A stretch of 64,000 bases of DNA from an uncultured Spirochaetota bacterium. Its GTDB lineage: Bacteria; Spirochaetota; Spirochaetia; Treponematales; Rectinemataceae. The translations under genes and the position numbers were made by a program. The notes under the pieces were generated by a model. That model was not told the origin of the DNA and did not search any database. It saw only the letters and a program-made list of their open reading frames with translations. Of the stretch, positions 36,105 to 50,783 are shown piece after piece (position 1 is the stretch's first letter; every line of letters starts with the position of its first letter). The DNA lies in the NCBI GenBank assembly GCA_903821875.1, contig CAIJMU010000193.1, forward strand, positions 1 through 64,000, written 5' to 3'.

Positions 36105-37280
36105 TCACTCTCCTCCTGCAGCGATCCCTGCGGTAGCCGCTGCGAGCGCTACGACAGCAGCCGGCCGGGCTGCCTCCTGCCTCTCAAAGGCGTAATCGAC
36201 CAGCCTGCCGACGAGGGAGCCGAGGTCCATACCCGAAGCCTCCCACATCTTGCTGAACACGCTGGTCCTGCCGAAGCCGGGCACGGTGTTGGCCTCTATG
36301 AATATCGGCCGCCCATCGGCCACAAAGAAATCGAGCCGTGACATTCCCCGCAGGCCCAGAAGTCCCCAGACGCGATCCGCGAGGGTCCTGATCTCGGCCT
36401 CGACCGCAGGCTCGAGTCTGGCTGGTATCGTATCCTCGAAGGCTCCCGGGCCATACTTGGCCTCGAAGGAAAGGAAGCCAGGGCAACCGCCGAATTCGAC
36501 CAGTGCACTCTGCTCGGGGCAGGCATTGCCGATCATGCCGATGCCGTATTCCATGCCGACCACAGCCTTCTCGAAGAGGACACGGTCTCCGTAGCCAAGC
36601 GCCACGAGAGCAGCCTCGCGCAGGGCCTGGCGGTTTCCGGCCCGGACTATGCCGACGGAGGAGCCCAGGCAGGGCGGTTTGACAAAGACTGGATAGCCGA
36701 GCTTCCCCTCGACCTCGGCAAGTGCAGCCTCAGCTCCTTCCTCCCACTCGCTTTTCAGGTACACGAGAAAATCCGCGACAGGGATGCCGGCGTTGCTGCA
36801 GATTGCCTTGTTGCAGGCCTTGTCGTTGCCGACTATGGAACCGGAAATGCCACAGCCGACATAGGCCAGGCCGAGGGTCTCGAGAAAGCCCTGGAAGATG
36901 CCGTCTTCGCCGCCCTGCCCGTGGAAAACCGGAAAGACCACATCCACAGCTCCCGAACTGAGGAGCCTGAGGGCTTCGCCCGGGCCGCTTGCAGGGAGGG
37001 TCGAGGCAAGCCAGTCAGCGAAATCCGGCGGCACCCGGTCGGCTGGGCCGAAGATGTCCCCCGCCTCGACGGCAAGGAAGTCGCGCAGGCGGTGGACGGC
37101 GGTGGCCGAGTCGGCCAGACGCCCCTCCTCGTCGACATAGATGGTCACAACACTGAACTTCGCGCGGTCGACGTGGGACATGATGTAGAGGGCGGACTTG
37201 ATGGAGATTTCGTGCTCGGCCGCCTTGCCGCCGAAGGCGAAACCGAGCCGGATGGGCGGCGTGGCCCTCCCGTCGCTCAT
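36105..37280 (-). CDS. ddl: D-alanine--D-alanine ligase
   Basis: A 391-residue ATP-grasp enzyme forming D-Ala-D-Ala for peptidoglycan. Marks include 'GFAFGGKAAEHEISIKSA', 'VFPVFHGQGGEDGIFQGFLE', 'FVKPPCLGSSVGIVRAG', the omega-loop pair K-Y in 'FEAKYGPG' (D-Ala-D-Ala rather than D-Ala-D-lactate type), and 'SRLDFFVADGRPIFIEANTVPGF'. It has about 25 extra Ala-rich residues at the C-terminus. It is the last gene of a coupled set: its ATG overlaps the sensor-MFS stop by four bases. The racemase two genes upstream could supply or modify D-amino acids. Confidence 0.92.
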   Translation of the reverse strand: MSDGRATPPIRLGFAFGGKAAEHEISIKSALYIMSHVDRAKFSVVTIYVDEEGRLADSATAVHRLRDFLAVEAGDIFGPADRVPPDFADWLASTLPASGPGEALRLLSSGAVDVVFPVFHGQGGEDGIFQGFLETLGLAYVGCGISGSIVGNDKACNKAICSNAGIPVADFLVYLKSEWEEGAEAALAEVEGKLGYPVFVKPPCLGSSVGIVRAGNRQALREAALVALGYGDRVLFEKAVVGMEYGIGMIGNACPEQSALVEFGGCPGFLSFEAKYGPGAFEDTIPARLEPAVEAEIRTLADRVWGLLGLRGMSRLDFFVADGRPIFIEANTVPGFGRTSVFSKMWEASGMDLGSLVGRLVDYAFERQEAARPAAVVALAAATAGIAAGGE

Positions 37281-39796
37281 GCCTTGCTCCGCAGGTTGCT
37301 TGCGAGGACGGCGAAGATGCCGGCACCCGCGAGGGTGAAGGCACCAATTACGCCGATACTGCCGGAAAAGCCCAGGGTTGCCACGAGAAGGCCCGCCACA
37401 AGCGGGACGGCTATGGAAGTCACCTTCTCGAAGGTCGCGTAGATGCCCAGGAAATTAGCCTCGCCGAGTTCCTCGGCCTCCCTCGCCGAGGTGAGGAAGG
37501 ACTCTTCGGAAGCATCGATCATCATGCCTCCAAAACCCATGCCGAAGAGGACGAGGGCGAGGAGGATGTAGGGACTCAAGGACCCGAAGAAGGTGATCGC
37601 TACAAAGAAGGCCACAAGGGAGAGCCCGGTGATGACATTGCCTGTCACGATGATCGTCTTCTCGTTGCGCTTCCGGTCGGCAAGGCGGGAAATGAGGGGG
37701 GTCGCAAGGCTGATGAGGCCGTAGACGGTCAGGAGGCGGCCGGTGTCGGCGGCGCTGATGCCTGAATGCCCCATGTAAAGGGGAAGGATGTACTGGAAGA
37801 TGCCGACATAGGCGAGGGAAAAGGGAATGCTCGAAAAGAGGAGGTTCATGAGGATGCTGCGATTGCGGTAGATGCGGAGCAGGCTAAGGAGACCCTCGCC
37901 CCTCGGGGCGCTGCCGCCCGCAGCGCTGCCCTTCTGGACGGAAACCCGCCGCTTCTTCGGCTCGGAGGGGGGCACGTAGAAAGCTACCAGGGCCAGAAGG
38001 AAGAGGGCCGCCCCCGTGGCGATGAGGATACCCACGCGGTAGCCGAGCCGGTTGACGATTACGCCGCCCACGGAAATGGCGCAGATGGTCGCTGCGGCAA
38101 AGCCCGCTGACCATGAGCCGAAGCCCGTGGAGCGGTTCCGGTCAGTCGTCGAGGCGACGACGAGATTGGAACCATTTATGACGATGCCGCCATAACCCAT
38201 CCCCGCGACGAGGCGGGCAGCGATGAGCCAGCCGATCCCGGACGCGAAGGCCGAGGCCAGGGTGCCGACCACGAAGAGCGAGCCTGCGATGAAAAAGATC
38301 CTCCGAATCGAAAGCATTGTTGAGAGGAAGCCCACAAGCGGTATGAAGATCGTCACGCCGAGCATGTAGGCCGCGATGGGAAGGCCGATGATGCTCTCCC
38401 GCGAGAGCCCCAGGATCGAGACGGGATTCCCGAGATAGATCTTCTCGATGAAGGCGGGCAGGAAGGAAAGGGGGATAAGGGCAGCGAAGAAGAAGACAAA
38501 GGCAAGGACGCGGACCACCTGGAGCGAACGCCGCTGCTCGGCTGCGGCCTCCTCAGCCGCGGCTTCCTCAGCAGCAGTCTCCTCGTTCGCAGCTGCCGAG
38601 CCTCCCTTCGCGCCAGGGATTCCGGGCATGACGACCGCTAGCATCCGCGTGAGTTCGAAGCCGAGCACAAGGGATACGGCCAGGATTGTCAGGACGTCGA
38701 GGAGGGCTTCGCGCAGTCGTTCCCCGATGAGCTTCTGATTGACGTTGACGACGAGGTAGGCCTTGGGCACCGCCCCGGAACCGAGGGGCACCACACGCCG
38801 TACCTCGTCCTGGATAATCGAGACCGGCTTCCCCGCACCTGACCCCGACACGGCGGAGAATATGCTCCAGGTCCCGGCCGCCGCCGCCGAATAGAGGATG
38901 CGTCCGGCGGGATCGACGATGGCGAGACTCTCGGCTTCCCGTGTCCGCACGCGGTTGCGCTCGAGGAAGGCATCGGCCCCGTTGAGCCGCTCGACGGCGA
39001 CTCCATAACCCAGCACCTTGTCGAGGTCGGTCTTCATGACCTGCCCGAGTGCGTCGACATTGCCCTCGAAGAGGGCGATATAGCCGCGCTCGAACTGGCG
39101 GTCGTTCAGCCAGGCATAGGAGCCCTGGGCAATCAGGAGGGTGATGCCCACTGCCAGCGTTGCCCGGACCGCTGCCGGAAGGCGGAGCCTGCCCTTCGCT
39201 GCAGCTGCCTCGCCGCCGATGAGAAGGCCAATCATGAGGAGGGTCGCACAGAGCATGATGGGCAGGATGATGCGGACGTTCTCGACATAGAGGGCGTTAA
39301 CACGCGTGGTCACCACGCTTTCTTTGAAGCGGAGCCGCACCATGCCAACCAGGGTCTCGCCTCCGTAGCGTATGGGCGCGCTTACCCAGTTCGAGTCCCC
39401 GACAGAGGCCACGGCGTATTCCTCACCACCTTCTGCGGGGCGGGTGGCGGGAAAGACCGTCATCCCGGCGGGGCGGCTCCCCAGCGACGAGGGTTCCGTG
39501 GAATAAAGTACCTTGCCATCTGCCTGGCTTACATAGAGGGCACTGATGTTGCCATCGCGCTCAAGGACAGCGGCAAACATCTTCTCCACTCCGCCAAGGA
39601 GGTAGATCGGACGGCCGAAATCGACATCCCTTTCCACCTGGCGGCGGAGCTCCCCCACCAGGATCCTGTACTTCGATTCGAGGGATTCCCTGAATGTCTT
39701 CTCGAAGGTGGAGACGCTCAGTACGGCTCCAAGGGTCTGGGCGATCAGGAGGACAATGAATCCCCCGATCACCATTCCGCGCAGGTGCTTCTTCAT
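37277..39796 (-). CDS. Two-domain extracytoplasmic sensor fused to an MFS transporter
   Basis: An 839-residue membrane protein with unusual architecture. A first membrane helix (about 8-28) is followed by a Cache-like extracytoplasmic domain (about 30-175), two helices, a second extracytoplasmic domain (about 230-365), another helix, and an Ala/Glu-rich linker of E-E-A-A-A units. A twelve-helix MFS carrier (about 425-839) then shows 'ARLVAGMGYGGIVINGSN' and 'SRLADRKRNEKTIIVTG', MFS-type loops. There is no kinase, HAMP or cyclase output, so the sensor probably gates the carrier itself. The ATG overlaps the preceding stop by four bases. Substrate unknown. Confidence 0.75.
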   Translation of the reverse strand: MKKHLRGMVIGGFIVLLIAQTLGAVLSVSTFEKTFRESLESKYRILVGELRRQVERDVDFGRPIYLLGGVEKMFAAVLERDGNISALYVSQADGKVLYSTEPSSLGSRPAGMTVFPATRPAEGGEEYAVASVGDSNWVSAPIRYGGETLVGMVRLRFKESVVTTRVNALYVENVRIILPIMLCATLLMIGLLIGGEAAAAKGRLRLPAAVRATLAVGITLLIAQGSYAWLNDRQFERGYIALFEGNVDALGQVMKTDLDKVLGYGVAVERLNGADAFLERNRVRTREAESLAIVDPAGRILYSAAAAGTWSIFSAVSGSGAGKPVSIIQDEVRRVVPLGSGAVPKAYLVVNVNQKLIGERLREALLDVLTILAVSLVLGFELTRMLAVVMPGIPGAKGGSAAANEETAAEEAAAEEAAAEQRRSLQVVRVLAFVFFFAALIPLSFLPAFIEKIYLGNPVSILGLSRESIIGLPIAAYMLGVTIFIPLVGFLSTMLSIRRIFFIAGSLFVVGTLASAFASGIGWLIAARLVAGMGYGGIVINGSNLVVASTTDRNRSTGFGSWSAGFAAATICAISVGGVIVNRLGYRVGILIATGAALFLLALVAFYVPPSEPKKRRVSVQKGSAAGGSAPRGEGLLSLLRIYRNRSILMNLLFSSIPFSLAYVGIFQYILPLYMGHSGISAADTGRLLTVYGLISLATPLISRLADRKRNEKTIIVTGNVITGLSLVAFFVAITFFGSLSPYILLALVLFGMGFGGMMIDASEESFLTSAREAEELGEANFLGIYATFEKVTSIAVPLVAGLLVATLGFSGSIGVIGAFTLAGAGIFAVLASNLRSKA

Positions 39797-41097
39797 TTCT
39801 TTGCCCCTTCGGAGGAGAAGACCTCGTCGGCACTGGCGATGATGTCTATGGGCACGTCGTAGCCCAGGGTACTGGCGCTGCCCAGGTTGATCGCGATGTG
39901 CGGTACATGCTCGTAGACCTGGGGAAGCTCGCGTGGCTTCCTGCCCTTGAAAATGCTGACAATCTTCTTGCCATTGAAGATGCCCTTCGCGACGAGGTTG
40001 GAATCCGATTCCCCGAGGAGGATGCCGTCCCTGACAAAGTTCTTTCCCTCCATGACAAAGGAGGGTTTCTTGTGCCGGTTGAGGACTTTTACGATGTCCG
40101 GAAGGCTGTATTCGGAGAGGCCAGCCTGGACAGCAAGATAGACAGCGTCGACCTTGGGACAGAGTGCGTCGAGCGCTGTGACATAGCGCGCCTCGGCGGC
40201 GGCCCAGGCTTCCTCGTCGTCCTCGTTCTCCGGATCGGGAAGCAGCTCGGTGCTCGCAGTGACGCTGAAGCCGTTCTCCTTGGCGACCTTGAGGATATCG
40301 TCCACTGCGCCATAGGCCCGGCCGATCTCGCTGTCCTCGTAAAGGATGCCGAGGGTCTTGAACTTGATGACGCTGTAGAAAAGGCGTACCTGCCTGATAT
40401 CCTGGTCGGGGTCCACGGCGCCAGTAAGGTAGTCCTTGCCCGAATCCCCGAGTGAGGCGAGGATGCCGGAGCCGACGGGATCGGAGATCGAGTCGACAAT
40501 GACCGGAATGTCAAAGCTGGCAGGCTTGGTAAGGATGCTGCTCACCTGCGTCCCGAGGGCGATGATGAGATCGACGCCCGAACCGGGGGAAGTCAGGCGC
40601 AGGTACTCGTGGCTTTTGGCATTTACGTCGTTCCACTTGAGGTCAAAGAAGGCCTGCTCGGGAAATTCGAGGTAGTCGCTGTAGTCGTTCTTGGCCAGCT
40701 CGGCCAGGATGTTGGGAACCGTCTTGCCGTCCTTGTATGCCGCGTAGCCGGCGAAGCCGGGAAGGAGGGAGGGGACTTCCCGTATCCAGCCAATGGTCAT
40801 GAGTCCCTTGAGCGTACCTTCCAGGACGTCGGCATAGGAGAAATACTCGCCGCTCTGCATGATGGCGATGCGAAAGCGTGAGCCGTCGGGCTTCTTGAAG
40901 GGCGTGTAGTAGCTCTCGTCGTCCTCGGCGGAAGCGGCGGCCTTGTCGAGGGCGGCCCGGGGCGCGGCAGCATCGGTGGTGGCTGCCAGTGATTCCTTCA
41001 CCGGACTCCCTGCGCCTGAACCACATCCCGTGGCCAAAAGCGCAATCGAGAAAAGGCCCGCAACGGCTACGGCCCGGATAGCCTGGTTCATCTTCAT
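39793..41097 (-). CDS. PF04392-type ABC substrate-binding lipoprotein
   Basis: A 434-residue exported lipoprotein (lipobox A-T-G-C, Cys near 25). The mature part is a two-lobe periplasmic-binding fold of the ABC_sub_bind type: 'FRIAIMQSGEYFSYADVLEG', 'VDLIIALGTQVSSIL', 'IPVIVDSISDPVGSGIL' and 'KTLGILYEDSEIGRAY'. Such proteins often bind aromatic amino acids or related ligands. No ABC permease or ATPase is in this cluster, so it may deliver ligand to the sensor-MFS protein encoded next. It overlaps both neighbours by four bases. Confidence 0.82.
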   Translation of the reverse strand: MKMNQAIRAVAVAGLFSIALLATGCGSGAGSPVKESLAATTDAAAPRAALDKAAASAEDDESYYTPFKKPDGSRFRIAIMQSGEYFSYADVLEGTLKGLMTIGWIREVPSLLPGFAGYAAYKDGKTVPNILAELAKNDYSDYLEFPEQAFFDLKWNDVNAKSHEYLRLTSPGSGVDLIIALGTQVSSILTKPASFDIPVIVDSISDPVGSGILASLGDSGKDYLTGAVDPDQDIRQVRLFYSVIKFKTLGILYEDSEIGRAYGAVDDILKVAKENGFSVTASTELLPDPENEDDEEAWAAAEARYVTALDALCPKVDAVYLAVQAGLSEYSLPDIVKVLNRHKKPSFVMEGKNFVRDGILLGESDSNLVAKGIFNGKKIVSIFKGRKPRELPQVYEHVPHIAINLGSASTLGYDVPIDIIASADEVFSSEGAKK

Positions 41098-42206
41098 CCT
41101 CGTTCCTCCATGGCAGGCAGAGCGCGCGTGGCCATGACCTTCTCCACATAGGGAGAGAGCATGGCCTGCGCGGCACTATGGTAATTGGTACGAAATTTGA
41201 CAAGGTCCCCCGGGCGCGGGGGATCTTCGCAGTCGGTTATGTCGAGCACCGCATGGTCGTGGGTAGCGCCCTCGAAAAAGGCTCCTGGCAGCAGGGGGGC
41301 CAGGCTCCGGGTGGGGGCTGCCAGCTCGCCGAAATTCAGGATCGCCCTCAGGCGTATCCCCGTGCGCGGCTTGAAGGCGGGGTGGCCGAAGGCGTTCAGT
41401 CCGTGGGGCTCGTCGTCAGTGACAAGCTTTTCACGGGCCTCGATGACCTCTGCGGTGAGGATAAGGGCGTCATCGTGGAGCCCGGGGATCTTTTTCGCGA
41501 GGGACATGTTGTAGCCAAAATATATCGCCTCGCCGATCCTGATCTGGTCAGCGAGGCCGTCCAGCGAACCCTCCGCAAGCATGTCGAAAACTGTAGTGCC
41601 TCCGATGCTCACTTCATAGCCCCCGAGCCCTGCCCGGGAAGCGGAACGGTCGCAAAGCTCCCGGAATCGGACCAGATCCTCCAGGTCGGGAACAAAACCG
41701 CGCAGGCAACCGTAGTTGGCGGCGAAACCCGCGATGCGCGGCCCTCCCCGCACGCGGGCAGCCTTGTCGACAAAGCCCGGCAGTTCCTCGGCGGTGACAC
41801 CATCGCGGAGATCGCCAGCCTCCACGCTTATGAAGGCCCCGCGCCGAGGTCCGGCGTGCCGAGGTCCGGCGTGCCGGGGTCCGGCGCGCCTGGCTTCGGC
41901 GCAGGTCTCGAAGTGGGAAAGCTCGGACAGAAAGACATAGTCGCAATTGGCCAGACCCTCGCGCATCTCAGCGAGAGAGCAACGGAGCAGCATGCGCTCC
42001 ACGTGGCCCGGCAGGCTGGAGAGATTGGCGAGGTTCGACTCCGCCACGATGCGCGCACCCGCGTCGATGATGGGTTGTACGATGTCGAGCTTCGTAAGGC
42101 AGATCTTGGCGACGACGACCAGGGATATGCCGTGCCCGTCGCAGATCTTCCGTACACTGCGGTAATTTTCGGTGATCTTGTCGATATCGATTGTCAGGCG
42201 GAGCAT
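41094..42206 (-). CDS. PLP-dependent racemase, ornithine/alanine-racemase-like
   Basis: A 370-residue protein with the alanine-racemase N-terminal TIM barrel. 'ISLVVVAKICLTKLDIVQPI' contains the likely PLP Lys, followed by 'GARIVAESNLANL', 'FISVEAGDLRDGVTAEEL', 'GFAANYGCLRGFVPDLEDL' and 'VSIGGTTVFDML', the order seen in the ornithine-racemase-type family rather than classic Alr. Substrate could be ornithine, alanine or another amino acid. A 15-base in-frame repeat inserts A-G-P-R-H units near residue 105-122. AAGGAGG precedes the ATG at 42206, which overlaps the transporter stop by one base (TGATG). Confidence 0.75.
   Translation of the reverse strand: MLRLTIDIDKITENYRSVRKICDGHGISLVVVAKICLTKLDIVQPIIDAGARIVAESNLANLSSLPGHVERMLLRCSLAEMREGLANCDYVFLSELSHFETCAEARRAGPRHAGPRHAGPRRGAFISVEAGDLRDGVTAEELPGFVDKAARVRGGPRIAGFAANYGCLRGFVPDLEDLVRFRELCDRSASRAGLGGYEVSIGGTTVFDMLAEGSLDGLADQIRIGEAIYFGYNMSLAKKIPGLHDDALILTAEVIEAREKLVTDDEPHGLNAFGHPAFKPRTGIRLRAILNFGELAAPTRSLAPLLPGAFFEGATHDHAVLDITDCEDPPRPGDLVKFRTNYHSAAQAMLSPYVEKVMATRALPAMEERG
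41838..41895. repeat. In-frame 15-bp minisatellite inside the racemase gene
   Basis: About four tandem units of a 15-base sequence (CCGGCGTGCCGAGGT), the middle two nearly identical and the outer ones diverged. It encodes A-G-P-R-H repeats in a surface-type loop and preserves the frame. Confidence 0.85.
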
Positions 42207-45064
42207 CAACCCTCCTTGGGAGCTTGGGGCATTTTTGCGACGAGCCTAAGCCGGTCGACGGCGGTGAGGGTCAGGTCATGGAGGAAATCGGGTCCGCCCC
42301 AGGCCAGGTCGGAGAGGGCCCGACCCGGCAAGTCGAGCAACTCTGCCGCTTCGGAGGCGACAGCGGATGTCATCCGCCTTTCGCCGAGCACCACCTCGAA
42401 GTCGCCAAAGACTTCGCCCGGGCCTAGCTCGAAAACGCTTCGGCCTGCCCTCTTCATGGCTACCCGCCCGGAGTGCACATAGAAAAAGGCCCGGGCTTCC
42501 TCGCCGGGAGAGTAGAGGCTCTCCCCGACCTCGAGCCTGCGGAGGTGCAGGAGCTTGCCGAGTCCCTCGAGGACATGGGCATCGAGGCTTCGCAGCGACG
42601 GTACCCGGGACAAAGCCTCCGCCGCGCTCCTGGCGTCCATCTGGGAGCCGGAACCAATTGCTTTGCGCCTCTTGGCAGCAGGCTTTCTACTCCCCGGCAG
42701 TGGATCACTAATAGGGAACTTGGACTGGATGGCATCGACAACCCTCCGGTCGATGACCTTGAGTATCTCGAAGGCTGTCCTCCACCGTGTCCGGGAGAAC
42801 TCAGTCAGGCGCTCTCCCCGCACCACGAGGAGCCGCAGGTCTTCCAGCGCAGTGACATCAGCAGAGCGCGGCTCAGGGCTCAGGGCCGAGAGCTCTCCGA
42901 AGACATCTCCCGCGCCCATCCTAGCGATCTCGGTTCCCGCGATGGAGATGCTGACACGGCCCGAAACGAGAAGATAGAGTTCGGATCCTTCCTCTCCCCT
43001 CGTGAGGATGCGCGTTCCAGCGGGGGCCAGCCTTTCCTCGATGGAAAGGGCGAGGACAGCGAGATCCTCGAAGGGGACGGAGCGGAAAATCGGGGCGACG
43101 GACAGCGAAAGGACCCTGTCGATCACCGGGGACTCCCGCTCCAGAAGGGCGACCTCGTCATCGCGCAAGGAAGCTGCCCCTTCGGGCAGCCAGGAGAGAT
43201 GGAGAAGGGCAAAGGTTCGCAGCCAGTCCTGCCCGGCGATGGCCGCTTTGTCCACGAGTTCCCGGAGAAGCTTCCCGTCTGGCTGCCCGGCGTAGGGAAG
43301 TGTCCCGCCTCTGCCCGCATCCTCGAACAGCGGCAGGATGAGGCCGCGATCAGGCCCCAGGAGGGTAGATTCGGCCAATTCCAGGGCATAGCCCCGCGCC
43401 GAGCCCCCTCCTGAAAAGAGAAGCCCGTGCCTGAGGGCGCTGATGGCGTTGCGCGAATAGGCCAAGGCGAGGATGAGCATGGATCGTTCCAGGGCTTTGT
43501 CAGCCTCCCGTTCCAGGGTTGCACCCAGGGCCTTTACGCTCATGGAGCGGGCTGCCTCGCGATAGCCGATGCACAGGGCTGCCTCCAGCTCGAGGGCCTG
43601 TCTGTAAGGACTCGAGCGGGAGTCTCCGCTTGAGCGATCGATGGCACAGCCCGACCGAACCAGGGCCTCGAAGCCTTCCCCGCGATCGGCATGCCGGGCT
43701 TCCCTGAGCAGGACGGCGAGCTCGTCCTGCAGCTCCCCATTGCACTGGGCATCCCCATCCTCGGAGGCCAGATCCCCTGCTGCTCCCATGCTGCCGCCCC
43801 GCGCCTGTGCCGTCACATCCACCCGATAGCGCTTTTCGGCACGCAGGGCGGCTACAATCCAGACAAGAAGCAGTGCCAGCGTCGCGGCTCCCACCATGGA
43901 GAAACCAAGCTTGAGCGGATTGATCAGGAGGAAAAGGAGAAGGCCCGCGAATCCTGATCCTATTTGCCCTACCGCAGTGTCGGCGAGAGCCTGGGCAGAG
44001 CTCCTGAGGGTGGACCGCAGGGGTTGATACAGGGTGAAATAGGCAGGAGCGTACAGGGAGCTTAAGGCCACTGTTTGCAGGAAGCGGACGAGGACGAGGG
44101 GCACGAAGGCCCCCGATCCCTGGCCCCCGATCAGGGACCATAGCACATGGACCGCGAGCGGCAGGGCCATCAGCAGGGCCGGGGCGACAAGCCCGCCCCG
44201 CAGGCCGAAACGGGCCAGGAAGGGATTGGTTCCGAAGACATTGATCGCAAGCTTGCAGGCGCCTGCCAGCGCAAAGAAAAGCCCCAGGAAAGAAGCCACG
44301 CTGCCAGCGTCCGGCAGGCTGCGCTGGAGCCCTGCGTAGAAGATCGTCTCTGAAAAGGCCTGGACGCAGAACTCCAGGAAGACGAGAAGGAAGATCAGTC
44401 GCACCAGGGGGTCTCGCACGGTCGTCGCCGCGCTGGCGTCCGCTTCGTGATAGCCGTCGGAGGCCAGGGGATGGCGCCTGCCCATGCGCTCGAAGTTGAG
44501 CCAGGCGCAGACAAGCCCGAAGAGGGAAATCCCCAGCAGGGCACCGACAGGCATGAAGCGCAGCAGCCAGGGAGCCAGGAATCCGCCGATCATGGCCGCA
44601 AGCACCTGGCCAGCGCTGACAAGTCCGAAAAGGCGCTTGGCCTGGCGGATGTCCAGGACCCTGTTGGCGTGGGCGGTAAAGCTGAGTTCCGTGAATGCGT
44701 ATTCGACATCCACCCAGATAATGAGGGCGATGCGGACAGGGGAGGCTCCACCCGTTGCGGCCAACAGCGCCGCTATCGTCCCGAGCCCGGCGACCAGGAG
44801 GGCCAGCGTCGTCCTGAGTGTGGCTGTGGCGCCGAAGCGCGTCAGCGCGGCTGAAAGGAGGTAACCGAGGGCAGGTACCAACAGGCCACCGGCCATGATG
44901 ACATAGGGCAGGTCGCCAGCCGAAAATGCGTCCAGAAAAAGCGCGGCGGCGACCGTTGCCGTGAATAGCTGGGGAATCCCGAGGAGAAAGGCCTGAAGGA
45001 AAAGTGAATAGGCGAGCGGACGCTCTTCCGCGTCAATATGAAGGGCGAGAACTCCACCGGCCAT
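42206..45064 (-). CDS. NTT/MFS-like transporter with helical domain and two cyclic-nucleotide-binding domains
   Basis: A 952-residue protein. About residues 1-420 form roughly twelve membrane helices resembling the ATP/ADP-translocase (NTT)/MFS group, with 'WVDVEYAFTELSFTAHANRVLD' among its loops. A helical repeat-like cytoplasmic region follows (about 430-650). CNB1 (about 655-780) has an intact phosphate-binding cassette 'FGELSALSPEPRSADVTAL', including the Arg that binds the cyclic phosphate. CNB2 (about 815-935) has a diverged cassette 'FGDFEVVLGERRMTS'. It should respond to cAMP or cGMP, plausibly from the two cyclases upstream. AGAGGA precedes the ATG at 45064. Confidence 0.78.
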   Translation of the reverse strand: MAGGVLALHIDAEERPLAYSLFLQAFLLGIPQLFTATVAAALFLDAFSAGDLPYVIMAGGLLVPALGYLLSAALTRFGATATLRTTLALLVAGLGTIAALLAATGGASPVRIALIIWVDVEYAFTELSFTAHANRVLDIRQAKRLFGLVSAGQVLAAMIGGFLAPWLLRFMPVGALLGISLFGLVCAWLNFERMGRRHPLASDGYHEADASAATTVRDPLVRLIFLLVFLEFCVQAFSETIFYAGLQRSLPDAGSVASFLGLFFALAGACKLAINVFGTNPFLARFGLRGGLVAPALLMALPLAVHVLWSLIGGQGSGAFVPLVLVRFLQTVALSSLYAPAYFTLYQPLRSTLRSSAQALADTAVGQIGSGFAGLLLFLLINPLKLGFSMVGAATLALLLVWIVAALRAEKRYRVDVTAQARGGSMGAAGDLASEDGDAQCNGELQDELAVLLREARHADRGEGFEALVRSGCAIDRSSGDSRSSPYRQALELEAALCIGYREAARSMSVKALGATLEREADKALERSMLILALAYSRNAISALRHGLLFSGGGSARGYALELAESTLLGPDRGLILPLFEDAGRGGTLPYAGQPDGKLLRELVDKAAIAGQDWLRTFALLHLSWLPEGAASLRDDEVALLERESPVIDRVLSLSVAPIFRSVPFEDLAVLALSIEERLAPAGTRILTRGEEGSELYLLVSGRVSISIAGTEIARMGAGDVFGELSALSPEPRSADVTALEDLRLLVVRGERLTEFSRTRWRTAFEILKVIDRRVVDAIQSKFPISDPLPGSRKPAAKRRKAIGSGSQMDARSAAEALSRVPSLRSLDAHVLEGLGKLLHLRRLEVGESLYSPGEEARAFFYVHSGRVAMKRAGRSVFELGPGEVFGDFEVVLGERRMTSAVASEAAELLDLPGRALSDLAWGGPDFLHDLTLTAVDRLRLVAKMPQAPKEG

Positions 45065-45167: not shown

Positions 45168-47747
45168 TCAAGACTCAGGGAGGCCATCGGACATTCCATA
45201 GATCGCGATGGACTCACCGAGGTGCAGTATCTCGCCAAGATGCCTGAAGCGCGCCTTCAGGTCCTCTGACAGGCCCTGCCAGGCAGGCTCTGAAAGGACC
45301 TGGGCAACGTGATGCTCCTTCGTCGCAGCCTCAAGGCGGTTTGCGAGGTCCACGCCAGAGGAAACCACCGTCACCGCCAGGCGCGCCTCGTTGCCGACCA
45401 CGCCGAGTATCATGTCCTCGGAATGTACGCCTACTCCGAAGTTTATCGCCGTGCGCCCCTTTTCGGCGAGCTCGCGGTTGAACTCAAGGAGGGCCTTCCT
45501 CATGTCCATCCCGGCACGCACCGCGTCGTCCGGGGACCTCGGGAAGATGGCCACGATGGCATCGCCTATGTAGCGGTCGATGAAGCCTCCGTGCTTCCTG
45601 ATCATGGGCCCCATGTGGTTGAAGTAGGCGTTGATGAAGTCGAAATTCTCCTTCGGGCTCATCTTCTCGGAGATGGCCGTAAAGGAGCGGATGTCCGAGG
45701 AAAAGAGCGTAATTGGTTTCTTTACCTGGTCACCCATGCGAACTTTGGCGATGCTCTCCTTGCCGAGGAAGCTCATGAACTCGGCGGGCACGAAGCGCGC
45801 GTTGGCCTCGTGCACCTGGCGGAGGCGGGCGAAGTTGGCGGAGAGCTTCTCGCTCATGACATTGAAATCGCGTCCGAGGTCGCCTATCTCGTCCCTGCGT
45901 TTCGCGGGCACCAGGACCCCCACCTCCCCCTCCATGAGCCGCTCCGAGGCCCGCTCGAGCGAGGCAAGGGAGAAAAAGAGCATGAGGTCGGCGAGCACGA
46001 GGATCACGATGACCGTAAGGAGGGAAAGGATGAGTCCGAGGAGAAGCCTCTGCCTGAAGGTCGTCGCGAGTTCCTCCACCGAGCTGTAGTTGTGGTAGAC
46101 CTCGAAGACGCCAGCGATCCGGCCGTCCGTCGTCCGTAGGGGTGCGAGGCCACCGAGATAGCTGCCGTACTCGTCGGAATAGAGCACGGTATCGAGCCTG
46201 CCCCCCCTGGCGGCCGCGTAGTGGCTCGGGCTGACGCCTCCGTAGGGGAACATCACTCCGTAATAATTGCTGCTGTTCCGGACGAAGAAGAGCCTGCCGT
46301 CCTGGTACTTGTAGATGACGATCCGCATGTCCTGGGTCCAGGGCTGTGCGTAGGAATCCAGCACCGAATCGACCTGTCGGCCAAGCGCCTCGTGGGCCGG
46401 GCCGCCAAAGTCCGATGCGGAGCCGATGGCATCGACGTCATCCCCCTTCACGAGCTGCGAACCGAGGGAGGCTATGAGCGAGAGCTTGGTCCTGAGTTCC
46501 TTCTGGTAGCTGGCCTCGAGCCTCCGGTAGATGGCGGCCGATCCAATGCTCACCGAGAGGACCACGAGGGGAAGGAAGACCGCCACCTGCTTGATGATGA
46601 TCGAGGTCCGTGAGGAAAAGAGCCTCCGGAGCAGGCCTATCACCGCGAAGAGGGACAGGGGCAGGAAGGCCAGTCCACAGGCCAGTCCCACCGTGTAGCC
46701 GACGAGGTCGTCGGTCCTCATGCGCGCTCCCGTCACGACCCTCGGGTTCCCCTTGGGATCAATTACGAAGACCGAGTGGTTGAACTTGTCGACCACCGCC
46801 CCCGAGCCATCCTGGGCGAAGGCCATGCCCTCGAAACAGGGCCGGTTCAGGCCGAGGTCCATGACGTCCTTCTCGGCGAAGACCGTCGTGAGGGAGCTGG
46901 CCTTGATCGAGTCGGCCCTGAGGACGACCTGCCTGAAGTTGTCGAGTATGTAGATCCGGCCCTTTGTGTCGACGCTGAGGATCCAGGGCTTTTCGTAGGG
47001 TTTGCCCGTGGCGAACCCGGGCTGCGTGATGGACCCGTCGCGTCCGAGGAGGTAGATCGAACCCTTCCTGTCGCTGAGCACCACACCCTCGGGCAGGTGC
47101 GGAACGGCTGCCACCCAGTCCAGGGTGAGGGGCGCGGAAAAGACGAGTTCGTGGCCGGCCGGATCGGGGCCCGCGGCGTCCGTGCGGAGCGGCCGCTTCA
47201 TGAGGTCGAGCTTTCCCTCGCCCTTGAGGAAATAGTAGAGATAGCCGTCCTGGACCATCAGGCTGCCGATGCGTTCGTCATCGGAATAGCCCGGACCCTT
47301 CGGGTTCTCCACGCGCACCAGTGCCCCGCGATAGCGGCCCGAAGAGTCGTAGGACACTATCTCCTCGCGCTCCTTGGTGGAATCGACGGGACTCATGACA
47401 TAGTTGTAGGCACAGACCCCGCCCCCGGGCACGGCGGCCAGGCTGTAGGCTTCGTAGAATCCACTCCCGCGGCGACCCCCATCGGCATGCCAAAGCTCGA
47501 CGCCATCGGGGGAAATGCTCACAATCCTGCGGGATTTGCCGTCGATCACGTAGAGGTCGCCCGAGGCATCCAGGTCGGCAAAGACGGGGTAGTTGAGCTT
47601 GAGATCCTTGTAGACGCCGTTCCCGAAAAGGTCACCGAGGGCGACCGAGCCACCGATGAGGGTGACAAGACCGGCGGTCAGGGCGAGGGGCAGGACGGCC
47701 ACCAGGCCGTCACGGAACATGAAGAGGAACTTCCTGACTCTGTCCAT
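45168..47747 (-). CDS. Beta-propeller/HAMP class III nucleotide cyclase, subunit A (metal-binding half)
   Basis: An 859-residue membrane protein. An N-terminal helix is followed by an extracytoplasmic NHL-type beta-propeller (about 40-300; blades such as 'PVFADLDASGDLYVID'), two helices, a Cache-like domain, another helix, HAMP (about 590-635) and a class III cyclase domain (about 675-830). Both metal Asp residues are present (Asp685 in 'SSDIRSF', Asp729 in 'IGD'). The purine-site Lys is replaced by Arg725 and the transition-state Asn by Asp800; Arg804 is kept, and Thr793 is class IIIb-like. The ATG at 47747 lies 7 bases after the subunit B stop. The losses complement those in subunit B. Confidence 0.83.
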   Translation of the reverse strand: MDRVRKFLFMFRDGLVAVLPLALTAGLVTLIGGSVALGDLFGNGVYKDLKLNYPVFADLDASGDLYVIDGKSRRIVSISPDGVELWHADGGRRGSGFYEAYSLAAVPGGGVCAYNYVMSPVDSTKEREEIVSYDSSGRYRGALVRVENPKGPGYSDDERIGSLMVQDGYLYYFLKGEGKLDLMKRPLRTDAAGPDPAGHELVFSAPLTLDWVAAVPHLPEGVVLSDRKGSIYLLGRDGSITQPGFATGKPYEKPWILSVDTKGRIYILDNFRQVVLRADSIKASSLTTVFAEKDVMDLGLNRPCFEGMAFAQDGSGAVVDKFNHSVFVIDPKGNPRVVTGARMRTDDLVGYTVGLACGLAFLPLSLFAVIGLLRRLFSSRTSIIIKQVAVFLPLVVLSVSIGSAAIYRRLEASYQKELRTKLSLIASLGSQLVKGDDVDAIGSASDFGGPAHEALGRQVDSVLDSYAQPWTQDMRIVIYKYQDGRLFFVRNSSNYYGVMFPYGGVSPSHYAAARGGRLDTVLYSDEYGSYLGGLAPLRTTDGRIAGVFEVYHNYSSVEELATTFRQRLLLGLILSLLTVIVILVLADLMLFFSLASLERASERLMEGEVGVLVPAKRRDEIGDLGRDFNVMSEKLSANFARLRQVHEANARFVPAEFMSFLGKESIAKVRMGDQVKKPITLFSSDIRSFTAISEKMSPKENFDFINAYFNHMGPMIRKHGGFIDRYIGDAIVAIFPRSPDDAVRAGMDMRKALLEFNRELAEKGRTAINFGVGVHSEDMILGVVGNEARLAVTVVSSGVDLANRLEAATKEHHVAQVLSEPAWQGLSEDLKARFRHLGEILHLGESIAIYGMSDGLPES

Positions 47748-47754
47748 CATTTCC

Positions 47755-50532
47755 TCATTTCTCGTCGAAGGACACGGCAGGAGTCCAGGGCGAGGGCTTG
47801 CCGCTCTCGAGGAGATGCCGGCAGCGGTCTGCGTGCCTTGTGATGACCGGATCCTCCGGAAGCCGGGAATGGAGGCTGTCGAAGCGCCTGGAAGCCTCAT
47901 CCAGATCGCCCCGCTCCCAGATCGCGAAGGCTTCCTCATAGTCGGGAAGAAGTGCCATCAGCGCCGCCCCTGCGGGATCCTCGGGATCGATGGGTTCGCA
48001 GATGAGGAGGGGCTCGCTCTTGCCTTTCACGATCACGTGGTCGAGGCGCCTGAAGGGATCGCGGGGACGGACAGGGGCGCGCGGGACATCGGTAGCCCCG
48101 CTTCCCTCCCCTTCGACCGGGGCCAGGAGGGTGCTGATCGTGGCAATGCAGGGCACGCGGTAGATCCGGCACAGCCCGTTGAGCCTGCTGGCGAGGTTGA
48201 CTGCGTCGGATATGACAGTGCCTTCCATGCGTTCGGACTCCCCGACGATGCCAAGCATCAGCGGCCCCCGGTGGATCCCGAAGGTCACCGTGAGTTCTTC
48301 GCTCCCGGCGGCGAGCCGCTTGGCGTTGTAGAGGCGGAGGCGCTTCCTGATGGCCCGCACGCTGCGGAAGGCATCCTGGGGAGAACCGGGGAAGAGCGCC
48401 ATATAGGTATCGCCCATATACTTGTCGATGAGCCCCCGGAGGAGACGGATCGGCGGCACCACAAGGCCGAGGTAGGAGTTGAGGAAATTAAAGACTCCCT
48501 GGGAAGAGTGATTGCTCGTGACCTTCCTGAAATTGCCGACCGTCGAAAAGAGCACGCAGATCTCGCGGCGGGTCTGGTCCCCCAGCCTGAGTTCCGTCAG
48601 GTCCTCGACGCCGAGGAGGTCGATGAAGTCGGCTGGCACGAACCTCGCGCTTGCCTTGGTCAGGTCCGTGATGTCGTCGACATAGGTCTGGAGCCTGTTG
48701 GCCATCTGGACGAAGGAGCGGCTCAGCTGCCCGATCTCGTCGCGGCTCTGGATCCCGGTGTGGAGGGCAAGGTCGCCTCCCGCTATCTGGCGCGTCATCC
48801 TCCGGAGCCGGTCGAGGGACCGCATCATGAAGAAATTCAGCATTATGAAGACTATGACGCTGGCGAGCGCGCTGGCGAAGGCGAAGGCCCGGGCGCTGGC
48901 GAGGTAGGCGTCGTCCACCTCGCGGACCAGATCCGAAAAGAGCCCGACTTCGACGATCCCCGCCTGGCTGCCGTCGGCACGGTCGAGCGATGCGAAGGCG
49001 GCCTCGTACATGCCGTAGTCGTCGAGGTACTCCTCGAAGATCCTCCCGGGCTTCGAGAAGAGTTCCTTGGCGGCGGGGGGCAGGAGGGTATAGGGATAGT
49101 CCACACCGAAGGTGCCCGACCCCGTATACACATAATAGGGTTGACCGCCGATCTGCCGGTACAGGGCCAGGTAGGCGAAGGCCCCGGTCCGTTCGCCCTC
49201 CTTGAGCAGCCCCTCGGCGGCTGCCCTGACGCGCGCGTAGGCGGGTGAGGCGAGATCGGAGGGCACCGCGAGCGCCTGCACGTCCTCGAGAGGCAGGAGC
49301 CTGGCGGTGAGGCTGGCCGCGTTCAGGAGGGTGTTCTTCACCTCCGCGCGGTAGCGACGTGCGAGCGTGTCGCCCACCTGGTTGAAGGCCACGTACTGCG
49401 AGGCGATGATGACGGGCACGAAAAATACGATCTGTACTAGAAGGAGCGGGTGTCGCCCCCTCATCACGCCGAGGAAGAACGACAGGACGGCGGCGACGAG
49501 CGAGAGCAGGGCGAGCACAAGACCCAGCCAGACCGACCAGCGGAAAGCCAGGGTAGCCTCCGAGTAGCGCGCGCCCTTGAAGACCTTCGGTTCCCCACCC
49601 TCGTCCGCTACAATGAGGGCCTGCCGTTCCTTGTCCGCCACCACCAGCGCGCCCTTCGGCGAGATCGCGAAACTGTCGGCAAAGACCCCGCCGGTCCTGC
49701 GCGTCGAAAGCAGGATGTCGGTCTTGCCATCGGGCTCGAGGCGGAGGAGTTCGCCCTTGAGCAGGTCCAGGAGAAGGAGTCGCCCTTTTTCATCGTATCT
49801 GAGATCCCAGGGTTTCGGCGCTGTGGGAATGGGGAGCAGCGTCCAGGAAGCGCCCGGCTCAGCCTGCCAGACGCTCCCGTCGCGGACGGCGGCGCAGAGA
49901 CTGCCGTTGGGAAGGGCTGCGACCGCGACAAAATCGAGGGAAGTAGGAAGACTGCGTATGGGAATCCTTCCCCCGCCGTCGAGATCGGTGCTGAAGAGAT
50001 TCAGGTTATGGCCGTCCCCCGAAAGGTAGTAAAGCCGATCCGCGCGGACGAAGATCGAAAAGAATCCGGGATAACTGTCGGAGGAAGCCTGGTTTTTTTC
50101 GCTGAACACGACGCGCTCGAAGGCCCCTGATTTCGAATAACGCAGCACCTGGATCTCTTCCGTATTGAAGCCGAGGCCCTGGTAGGGGATCTTGTTGTAG
50201 ACATAGAGCCGGTTCTGGCCATCCACCGCGAGGTTGGCCGCGTAGAAAAAGCCGCCGCTCCTGCGTCCGCCGGTTTTCACCCAGCGGAGGCGCCCCTCCT
50301 TGTCCAGGGCCACGATTCGACGCTGGGCTGTATCCACGACATAGCCATTGCCTTCCGAGTCCATGGCCGATGCGTAGGGAAAGAAGAGCGGCAGGCTTTC
50401 GGCGACGGGTAGACGCGTTAGTTCTCCGCGAAAGGTCAGCACATAGGCCGCCAGTGCGACGGAAATGCCCAGGAAGGCGAGGGCTGCCCTGCGCGCGGCT
50501 ATTCCGAATATCATAGGAAGTATATAAAGCAT
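47755..50532 (-). CDS. Beta-propeller/HAMP class III nucleotide cyclase, subunit B (purine-binding half)
   Basis: A 925-residue paralogue of the following gene with the same layout: helix, extracytoplasmic NHL-type propeller (about 50-320), two helices, Cache-like region, helix, HAMP (about 575-625) and class III cyclase domain (about 650-800), then a ~100-residue helical tail. The first metal Asp is lost (Thr664 in 'LFSTVGNF', much like the C2 half of mammalian adenylyl cyclase). Lys704 ('IDKYMGD'), Asp708, Thr772, Asn779 and Arg783 ('VNLASRL') are kept. It should be inactive alone and form a site with subunit A. The ATG at 50532 with AGGAG at 8 bases is preferred. Confidence 0.82.
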   Translation of the reverse strand: MLYILPMIFGIAARRAALAFLGISVALAAYVLTFRGELTRLPVAESLPLFFPYASAMDSEGNGYVVDTAQRRIVALDKEGRLRWVKTGGRRSGGFFYAANLAVDGQNRLYVYNKIPYQGLGFNTEEIQVLRYSKSGAFERVVFSEKNQASSDSYPGFFSIFVRADRLYYLSGDGHNLNLFSTDLDGGGRIPIRSLPTSLDFVAVAALPNGSLCAAVRDGSVWQAEPGASWTLLPIPTAPKPWDLRYDEKGRLLLLDLLKGELLRLEPDGKTDILLSTRRTGGVFADSFAISPKGALVVADKERQALIVADEGGEPKVFKGARYSEATLAFRWSVWLGLVLALLSLVAAVLSFFLGVMRGRHPLLLVQIVFFVPVIIASQYVAFNQVGDTLARRYRAEVKNTLLNAASLTARLLPLEDVQALAVPSDLASPAYARVRAAAEGLLKEGERTGAFAYLALYRQIGGQPYYVYTGSGTFGVDYPYTLLPPAAKELFSKPGRIFEEYLDDYGMYEAAFASLDRADGSQAGIVEVGLFSDLVREVDDAYLASARAFAFASALASVIVFIMLNFFMMRSLDRLRRMTRQIAGGDLALHTGIQSRDEIGQLSRSFVQMANRLQTYVDDITDLTKASARFVPADFIDLLGVEDLTELRLGDQTRREICVLFSTVGNFRKVTSNHSSQGVFNFLNSYLGLVVPPIRLLRGLIDKYMGDTYMALFPGSPQDAFRSVRAIRKRLRLYNAKRLAAGSEELTVTFGIHRGPLMLGIVGESERMEGTVISDAVNLASRLNGLCRIYRVPCIATISTLLAPVEGEGSGATDVPRAPVRPRDPFRRLDHVIVKGKSEPLLICEPIDPEDPAGAALMALLPDYEEAFAIWERGDLDEASRRFDSLHSRLPEDPVITRHADRCRHLLESGKPSPWTPAVSFDEK

Positions 50533-50550
50533 GCAGGGTTCTCCTGCATA
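50530..50550 (-). promoter_or_regulatory. Hairpin covering the ribosome binding site and start codon of cyclase B
   Basis: On the mRNA strand, ATGCAGG and CCTGCAT form a 7-bp stem with a 5-base loop. The first arm and loop include the AGGAG, and the second arm includes most of the start ATG at 50532. It could hide the start site. The 251-base gap upstream, to the iron permease gene, has other short GC-rich palindromes but no recognised gene or known riboswitch. Confidence 0.4.
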
Positions 50551-50783
50551 GGGGAGGTTTACCCACATTCCACGGCTTTGGTAGCGCCGGGGTGAACCTC
50601 AGGACCTTCCCTGCCTTGCTGGCCCTTCCCTGCGTCGACGAGGGCTGCCAAGGCAGTTACAACTACGACCAATTCCGTCCCCCCGGTCCATCCCGGTGAT
50701 GCAACCCGCCTCCGTCCCTGCCCTGGCAGGGCTTAGGGGTTGGGCGATTTCACCTCGAGGCTGTGGGCTGCCTGGTCTCCGGA

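Follow-up and report, generated by a model that had tools for sequence, protein, structure and literature searches.

Two adjacent genes on the reverse strand of the window (the whole stretch of 64,000 nucleotides analysed here, positions 1 to 64,000 of contig CAIJMU010000193.1 from an uncultured Spirochaetota bacterium) most probably encode, judging by their catalytic residues, two proteins that work only together, as a heterodimeric receptor adenylyl cyclase. The sites of class III cyclases form at a dimer interface. Neither of the two proteins, named A and B here, can therefore complete a site as a homodimer, and only their combination can do so; the same holds for a second adjacent pair of the same genome, C and D. 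An earlier note on this DNA had proposed a bacterial heterodimer of the mammalian C1/C2 type. Comparison with relatives strongly supports this reading through the complete sites of single-gene relatives, the conservation of the A/B split in a second genome (G640) and the independent split of C and D, while dimerisation and activity are predicted. Given the G640 relatives and a second, unrelated pair with the same division of residues, two-chain cyclases very probably operate in these bacteria, and the sequences are best explained if Spirochaetota gave rise at least twice to adenylyl cyclases that are obligate heterodimers of the C1/C2 type.

Gene A (positions 45168–47750, start at 47750 or 47747), the predicted metal donor, and gene B (47755–50568, start at 50568 or 50532), the predicted donor of purine-binding and transition-state residues, lie in tandem on the reverse strand as had been described. 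The 7-base gap previously given between them holds when A is read from its second ATG but shrinks to 4 bases when its first in-frame ATG is used. B is organized as a transmembrane segment, an NHL propeller, a transmembrane/periplasmic domain, a HAMP domain, a class III cyclase domain and a TPR-like tail; A has the same architecture without the C-terminal tail. The two proteins are 29% identical over 797 amino acids in an alignment spanning propeller to cyclase, and their HAMP-to-cyclase linkers align without gaps. Pfam identifies HAMP and Guanylate_cyc domains in both (PF00211 scores of 47.4 bits for A and 41.2 bits for B, above the cut-off of 21.9), and the NHL propeller is only marginal in Pfam. 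In the AlphaFold model of A (mean pLDDT 81) an NHL propeller is found at residues ~49–335, with Z of about 21 to NHL domains (21.4 over 250 residues to that of Brat), and a class III cyclase fold at ~649–857, with Z of about 22 to CyaC, CyaB, Cya2 and OaPAC (22.5 and 2.1 Å over 179 residues for CyaC, 1wc1). An alpha/beta domain (~434–554) is modelled between two long helices; Pfam has no Cache match there, and the fold is compatible with a candidate Cache domain. Of the propeller-Cache-HAMP architecture given in the earlier note, HAMP is confirmed in both proteins and the propeller by the model of A, and Cache stays a candidate.

All catalytic residues quoted in the earlier note are correct when B is numbered from 50532 and A from 47747. 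A retains the first and second metal-binding aspartates, Asp685 (45693–45695, reverse strand like all codons listed here) and Asp729 (45561–45563), and carries Arg725 (45573–45575) in place of the purine-binding lysine and Asp800 (45348–45350) in place of the transition-state asparagine, the same Arg and Asp being found in G640. In B the first metal aspartate is replaced by Thr664 (48541–48543; Ser in the G640 orthologue) and most of the phosphate loop around it is also lost, while the second, Asp708 (48409–48411; Glu in the G640 orthologue), the purine lysine Lys704 (48421–48423), the purine-side Thr772 (48217–48219) and the transition-state residues Asn779 and Arg783 (48184–48198) are kept. 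The alignment adds a seventh residue, the lysine of a VKGK motif, kept in B (48025–48027; residue 848 counted from 50568 or 836 from 50532) and lost in A. It also adds that A still has Thr793 on the purine side and Arg804 among the transition-state residues, so that what A has lost is the Lys and the Asn rather than the entire purine half. Proper alignment restored the canonical residues in neither protein. The full set that one chain of a class III homodimer carries is absent from A, which lacks Lys and Asn, and from B, which lacks the first metal Asp. The only complete site combines the metal residues of A with the purine and transition-state residues of B, as claimed before; this C1/C2-like division is seen in the sequences and is conserved in G640. 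Two other causes for the odd residues were considered and dropped: misalignment, as the motif context is unambiguous, and sequencing error, as identical losses occur in an independent genome.

Full-length relatives were collected from 15 genomes of the same order and the search with a profile of the sensor region was then widened across the phylum. Nearly all of the ~45 single-gene propeller-HAMP-cyclase relatives with readable catalytic positions have a complete site with the pattern Asp, Lys, Asp, Thr/Ser, Asn, Arg (DKDT/SNR). A single-gene relative in genome G195 (L145:7423-10164) has the residues E K D T N E and is the only one of the order with altered residues. The other exceptions among the sensor-cyclases read are the Cohnella/Paenibacillus homologues and the tandem genes described below.

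The pair itself recurs in G640, a Spirochaetales metagenome-assembled genome (MAG) matched with the A-type alignment (contig CANJXC010000008.1), where four sensor-cyclase genes in tandem lie upstream, by the direction of transcription, of a ddl-mfs-sbp-rac operon. The gene nearest to rac is the orthologue of A (49% identity; residues D R D T D K) and the next one is the orthologue of B (49% identity; S K E T N R); A and B are only 26–29% identical to each other. The positions lost in A and B are lost in their G640 orthologues as well, and the further changes there are confined to the halves already lost. The order of transcription is B′-A′-B-A, B′ and A′ being duplicates of B and A that are degenerate on both sides; the pair was thus duplicated as a unit. 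In the tree A-types and B-types form separate clades with long stems, each with 100/100 support. Among family-conserved columns near the site the A-types keep 8/8 metal-side residues; the B-types keep 3/8 and 2/8 on the metal side and 13/14 and 11/14 on the purine/transition-state side. The VKGK lysine is likewise kept in the B-types and lost in the A-types. The earlier note had pointed out that orthologues of A and B occurring separately would speak against the pair. No lone orthologue was found: G640, the only other genome with either gene, has both, adjacent and with complementary losses. Searches of the order, family, class and phylum, in which many of the genomes compared are draft assemblies or MAGs, found no A/B pair outside these two genomes; a scan of named genomes with B gave no match, and one with the A-type alignment returned CANJXC010000008.1 and distant relatives but no additional A/B pair. 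In another genome, G415, the rac-sbp-mfs-ddl operon stands behind one complete cyclase.

Reading the catalytic positions in all 29 PF00211 cyclase matches of the source genome revealed the second split pair, C/D, on another contig (C76, L229:5771-9222). C is the metal donor (D K D T E G) and D carries H K D T N R; the two genes overlap by four bases and are preceded by a CheR-like gene and a gene for a CheA-CheW-receiver protein. The pair is present in six genomes (the source genome, G640, G435, G408, G453 and G415) behind the same CheR-CheA genes, with CheR of the G453 locus beyond the stretch examined. Both metal aspartates are kept by C in 6/6 pairs (D K D T/A), and its Asn is replaced by E, E, S, G, S and R and its Arg by G, L, E, E, A and E across the six genomes. 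In all six D proteins the first metal Asp is replaced by His, and Lys, Asp, Thr, Asn and Arg are present. The same operon carries one cyclase in 11 other genomes, all with complete sites (one further copy, cut by the contig end, was left out of the residue scoring). All D proteins and all single cyclases have the VKGK lysine, and every C protein has lost it. Metal donors of both the A/B and the C/D families also lack the C-terminal TPR-like tail, which their partners and single relatives keep. C and D form clades with 100/99 support each and similar branching. The N-terminus of C used as query found no orthologue in the order; D as query found the other C/D pairs across the phylum, and no new close D orthologue came from relatives of G453 and G408.

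The strongest alternative, which we consider unlikely, is that A and B are both pseudo-cyclases, receptors that produce no cyclic nucleotide and pass on their signal through contacts with proteins. Fully degenerate members of the family do exist: the duplicates B′ and A′ of G640, and homologues in Cohnella/Paenibacillus in which most catalytic residues are changed (N K A N Q M or N K A N N T), no second sensor-cyclase being detected near the latter in the stretch examined. The Cohnella/Paenibacillus sequences apparently represent a conserved dead receptor cyclase. With such members in the same family, the loss of catalytic residues is by itself no proof of a composite enzyme. That A/B is known from two genomes only also counts against the heterodimer. 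However, the degenerate members are damaged in both halves, whereas in A/B (two genomes) and C/D (six) both metal aspartates are present in one chain, and Lys, Thr, Asn, Arg and the VKGK lysine in its partner, without exception, and the lost positions of C drift freely, unlike the needed half.

A very improbable alternative is that the two proteins form separate homodimers that retain some activity or have a changed one, B working for example with one metal Asp and A with Arg and Asp as substitutes. The Thr793 and Arg804 retained in A, the conservative change of Lys to Arg and the second metal Asp of B would fit it, but in B the phosphate loop is largely gone along with the first metal Asp, and the G640 orthologues have other residues at both metal positions (B) and at the Lys, Asn and Arg positions (A), which leaves no plausible homodimer site in either orthologue. 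Pairing of one subunit with a cyclase other than its neighbour is scarcely credible, since A and B lie 4–7 bases apart and are adjacent in G640 too, where they were duplicated as a unit, even though the source genome has 29 PF00211 matches to choose from, several with odd residues.

A tree of the cyclase domain only sets the A/B family apart from C/D with 100/100 support. Placing all metal donors in one clade is rejected (p-AU 1.3e-7), so that the split evolved at least twice. Grouping of A with B in one clade (p-AU 0.26) and of C with D (p 0.11) is neither supported nor rejected. The earlier note called A and B tandem duplicates; they are in tandem and 29% identical along their length, and the tree is compatible with duplication as well as with separate recruitment. 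In a simple random-loss count over six or seven residues, complementary losses would arise by chance in one pair with a probability of 0.08–0.18, and the pattern of the G640 pair with one of about 0.01. The case for the heterodimer rests less on these figures than on the retention of the needed half over deep divergence, the free drift of the lost half of C, the contrast with single-cyclase loci and the independent repetition of the split.

In the heterodimer A and B would pair through HAMP and coiled-coil linkers of equal length. One active site would be built from Asp685, Asp729 and the phosphate loop of A with Lys704, Thr772, Asn779, Arg783 and the VKGK lysine of B; the mirror site (Thr664 and Asp708 of B with Arg725 and Asp800 of A) would be dead and is maybe regulatory. 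The Lys and Thr of B predict ATP as substrate. One cAMP output would integrate the signals of the two propeller receptors, which are related but have diverged. The simplest origin would be that a homodimeric ancestor was duplicated and the two copies then degenerated in complementary ways. A wider reading, which as a whole is possible but somewhat doubtful, is that two-gene obligate heterodimers evolved at least twice, as membrane receptors (A/B) and as soluble partners in CheA operons (C/D), with the dead site retained for regulation by a bound nucleotide and the two different sensor chains together working as a coincidence detector.

The cAMP would perhaps be read by the product of the gene directly downstream of A in the same run (42206–45064, reverse strand), a candidate cAMP effector. 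This protein has a weakly TLC/MFS-like membrane part (TLC, E 0.009) and two cyclic-nucleotide-binding domains (cNMP_binding, E 5e-31), the first with an FGELSAL...PRSA cassette; its gene is not in the G640 operon. The rest of the predicted operon (36105–42209, reverse strand) codes for an alanine-racemase-like protein, an ABC_sub_bind protein, an MFS protein and a D-Ala-D-Ala-ligase-like protein. Each of these genes overlaps the next by 4 bases, and their order is conserved in G640 and G415.

The nearest solved structures to the cyclase domain of A/B are those of the bacterial class III enzymes CyaC, CyaB, Cya2 and OaPAC which, unlike A/B, are homodimers in which each chain carries the full catalytic set and the two sites are equal. 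Rv1625c of Mycobacterium tuberculosis is also a homodimeric bacterial cyclase and is viewed as a progenitor of C1/C2. Guo in 2001 reportedly restored its activity by mixing mutants that lacked complementary residues; that heterodimer was engineered, whereas the one of A/B is predicted to be natural. Mammalian membrane adenylyl cyclases (the class IIIa C1/C2 pseudo-heterodimer) share with A/B one composite site, the division between metal aspartates and purine/transition-state residues, and a degenerate second site. They differ in the purine pair (Lys/Asp against Lys/Thr in A/B) and in having two 6-TM bundles instead of propeller-HAMP receptors; the union of both cyclase domains and both bundles in one polypeptide that defines the mammalian family is not found in A/B, which are two separate spirochaete genes. 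Soluble guanylyl cyclase alpha1/beta1 resembles A/B in its two homologous chains from two genes with one catalytic site, and is unlike them as a GTP enzyme of animals with a haem sensor, the closeness being that of the class III fold only. The chytrid rhodopsin guanylyl cyclases RGC1/NeoR are likewise an obligate heterodimer of receptor cyclases encoded by separate genes, although RGC1 and RGC2 retain all residues known to be necessary for cyclisation (PMC8815786), unlike A/B and C/D.

According to a 2022 review, class III adenylyl cyclases of bacteria form homodimers and are not known there in any fused dimeric form; it asks what advantage the duplicated eukaryotic form brings (PMC9552081). 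In the open-licence literature, which is only part of the whole, we found no report of a natural heterodimeric or split class III cyclase from bacteria. The working principle is known from C1/C2 and soluble guanylyl cyclase. A natural bacterial split cyclase that is conserved and evolved twice would represent the step from homodimer to C1/C2-like asymmetry taken in separate genes. As single-gene relatives and split pairs are found side by side in the same operons, the origin and regulatory benefit of an asymmetric cyclase become directly testable. The A/B and C/D pairs would also offer natural two-input cAMP receptors.

Some further observations concern the sensor region and the other cyclases of the source genome. 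In Cohnella/Paenibacillus (L151:9809-12592, L152:3433-6231, L153 and L154) the full-length receptor homologue is followed by two conserved genes coding for ~190 and 1015 amino acids. In many relatives (L113–L117, L119, L121–L123; also L071, L075 and L136) a protein of ~1000 amino acids with the same sensor region followed by an MFS-looking part adjoins the sensor-cyclase, which looks like one sensor head placed on two different outputs. The source genome has one more copy of the sensor region, its third, which lacks a cyclase (532 amino acids; L125:9109-10704, contig C105) and lies at a contig end, where it adjoins a chemotaxis-receptor-like gene. Five other cyclase matches of this genome (L019, L021, L026, L028 and L029) have unusual catalytic residues and are possible further pseudo-cyclases.
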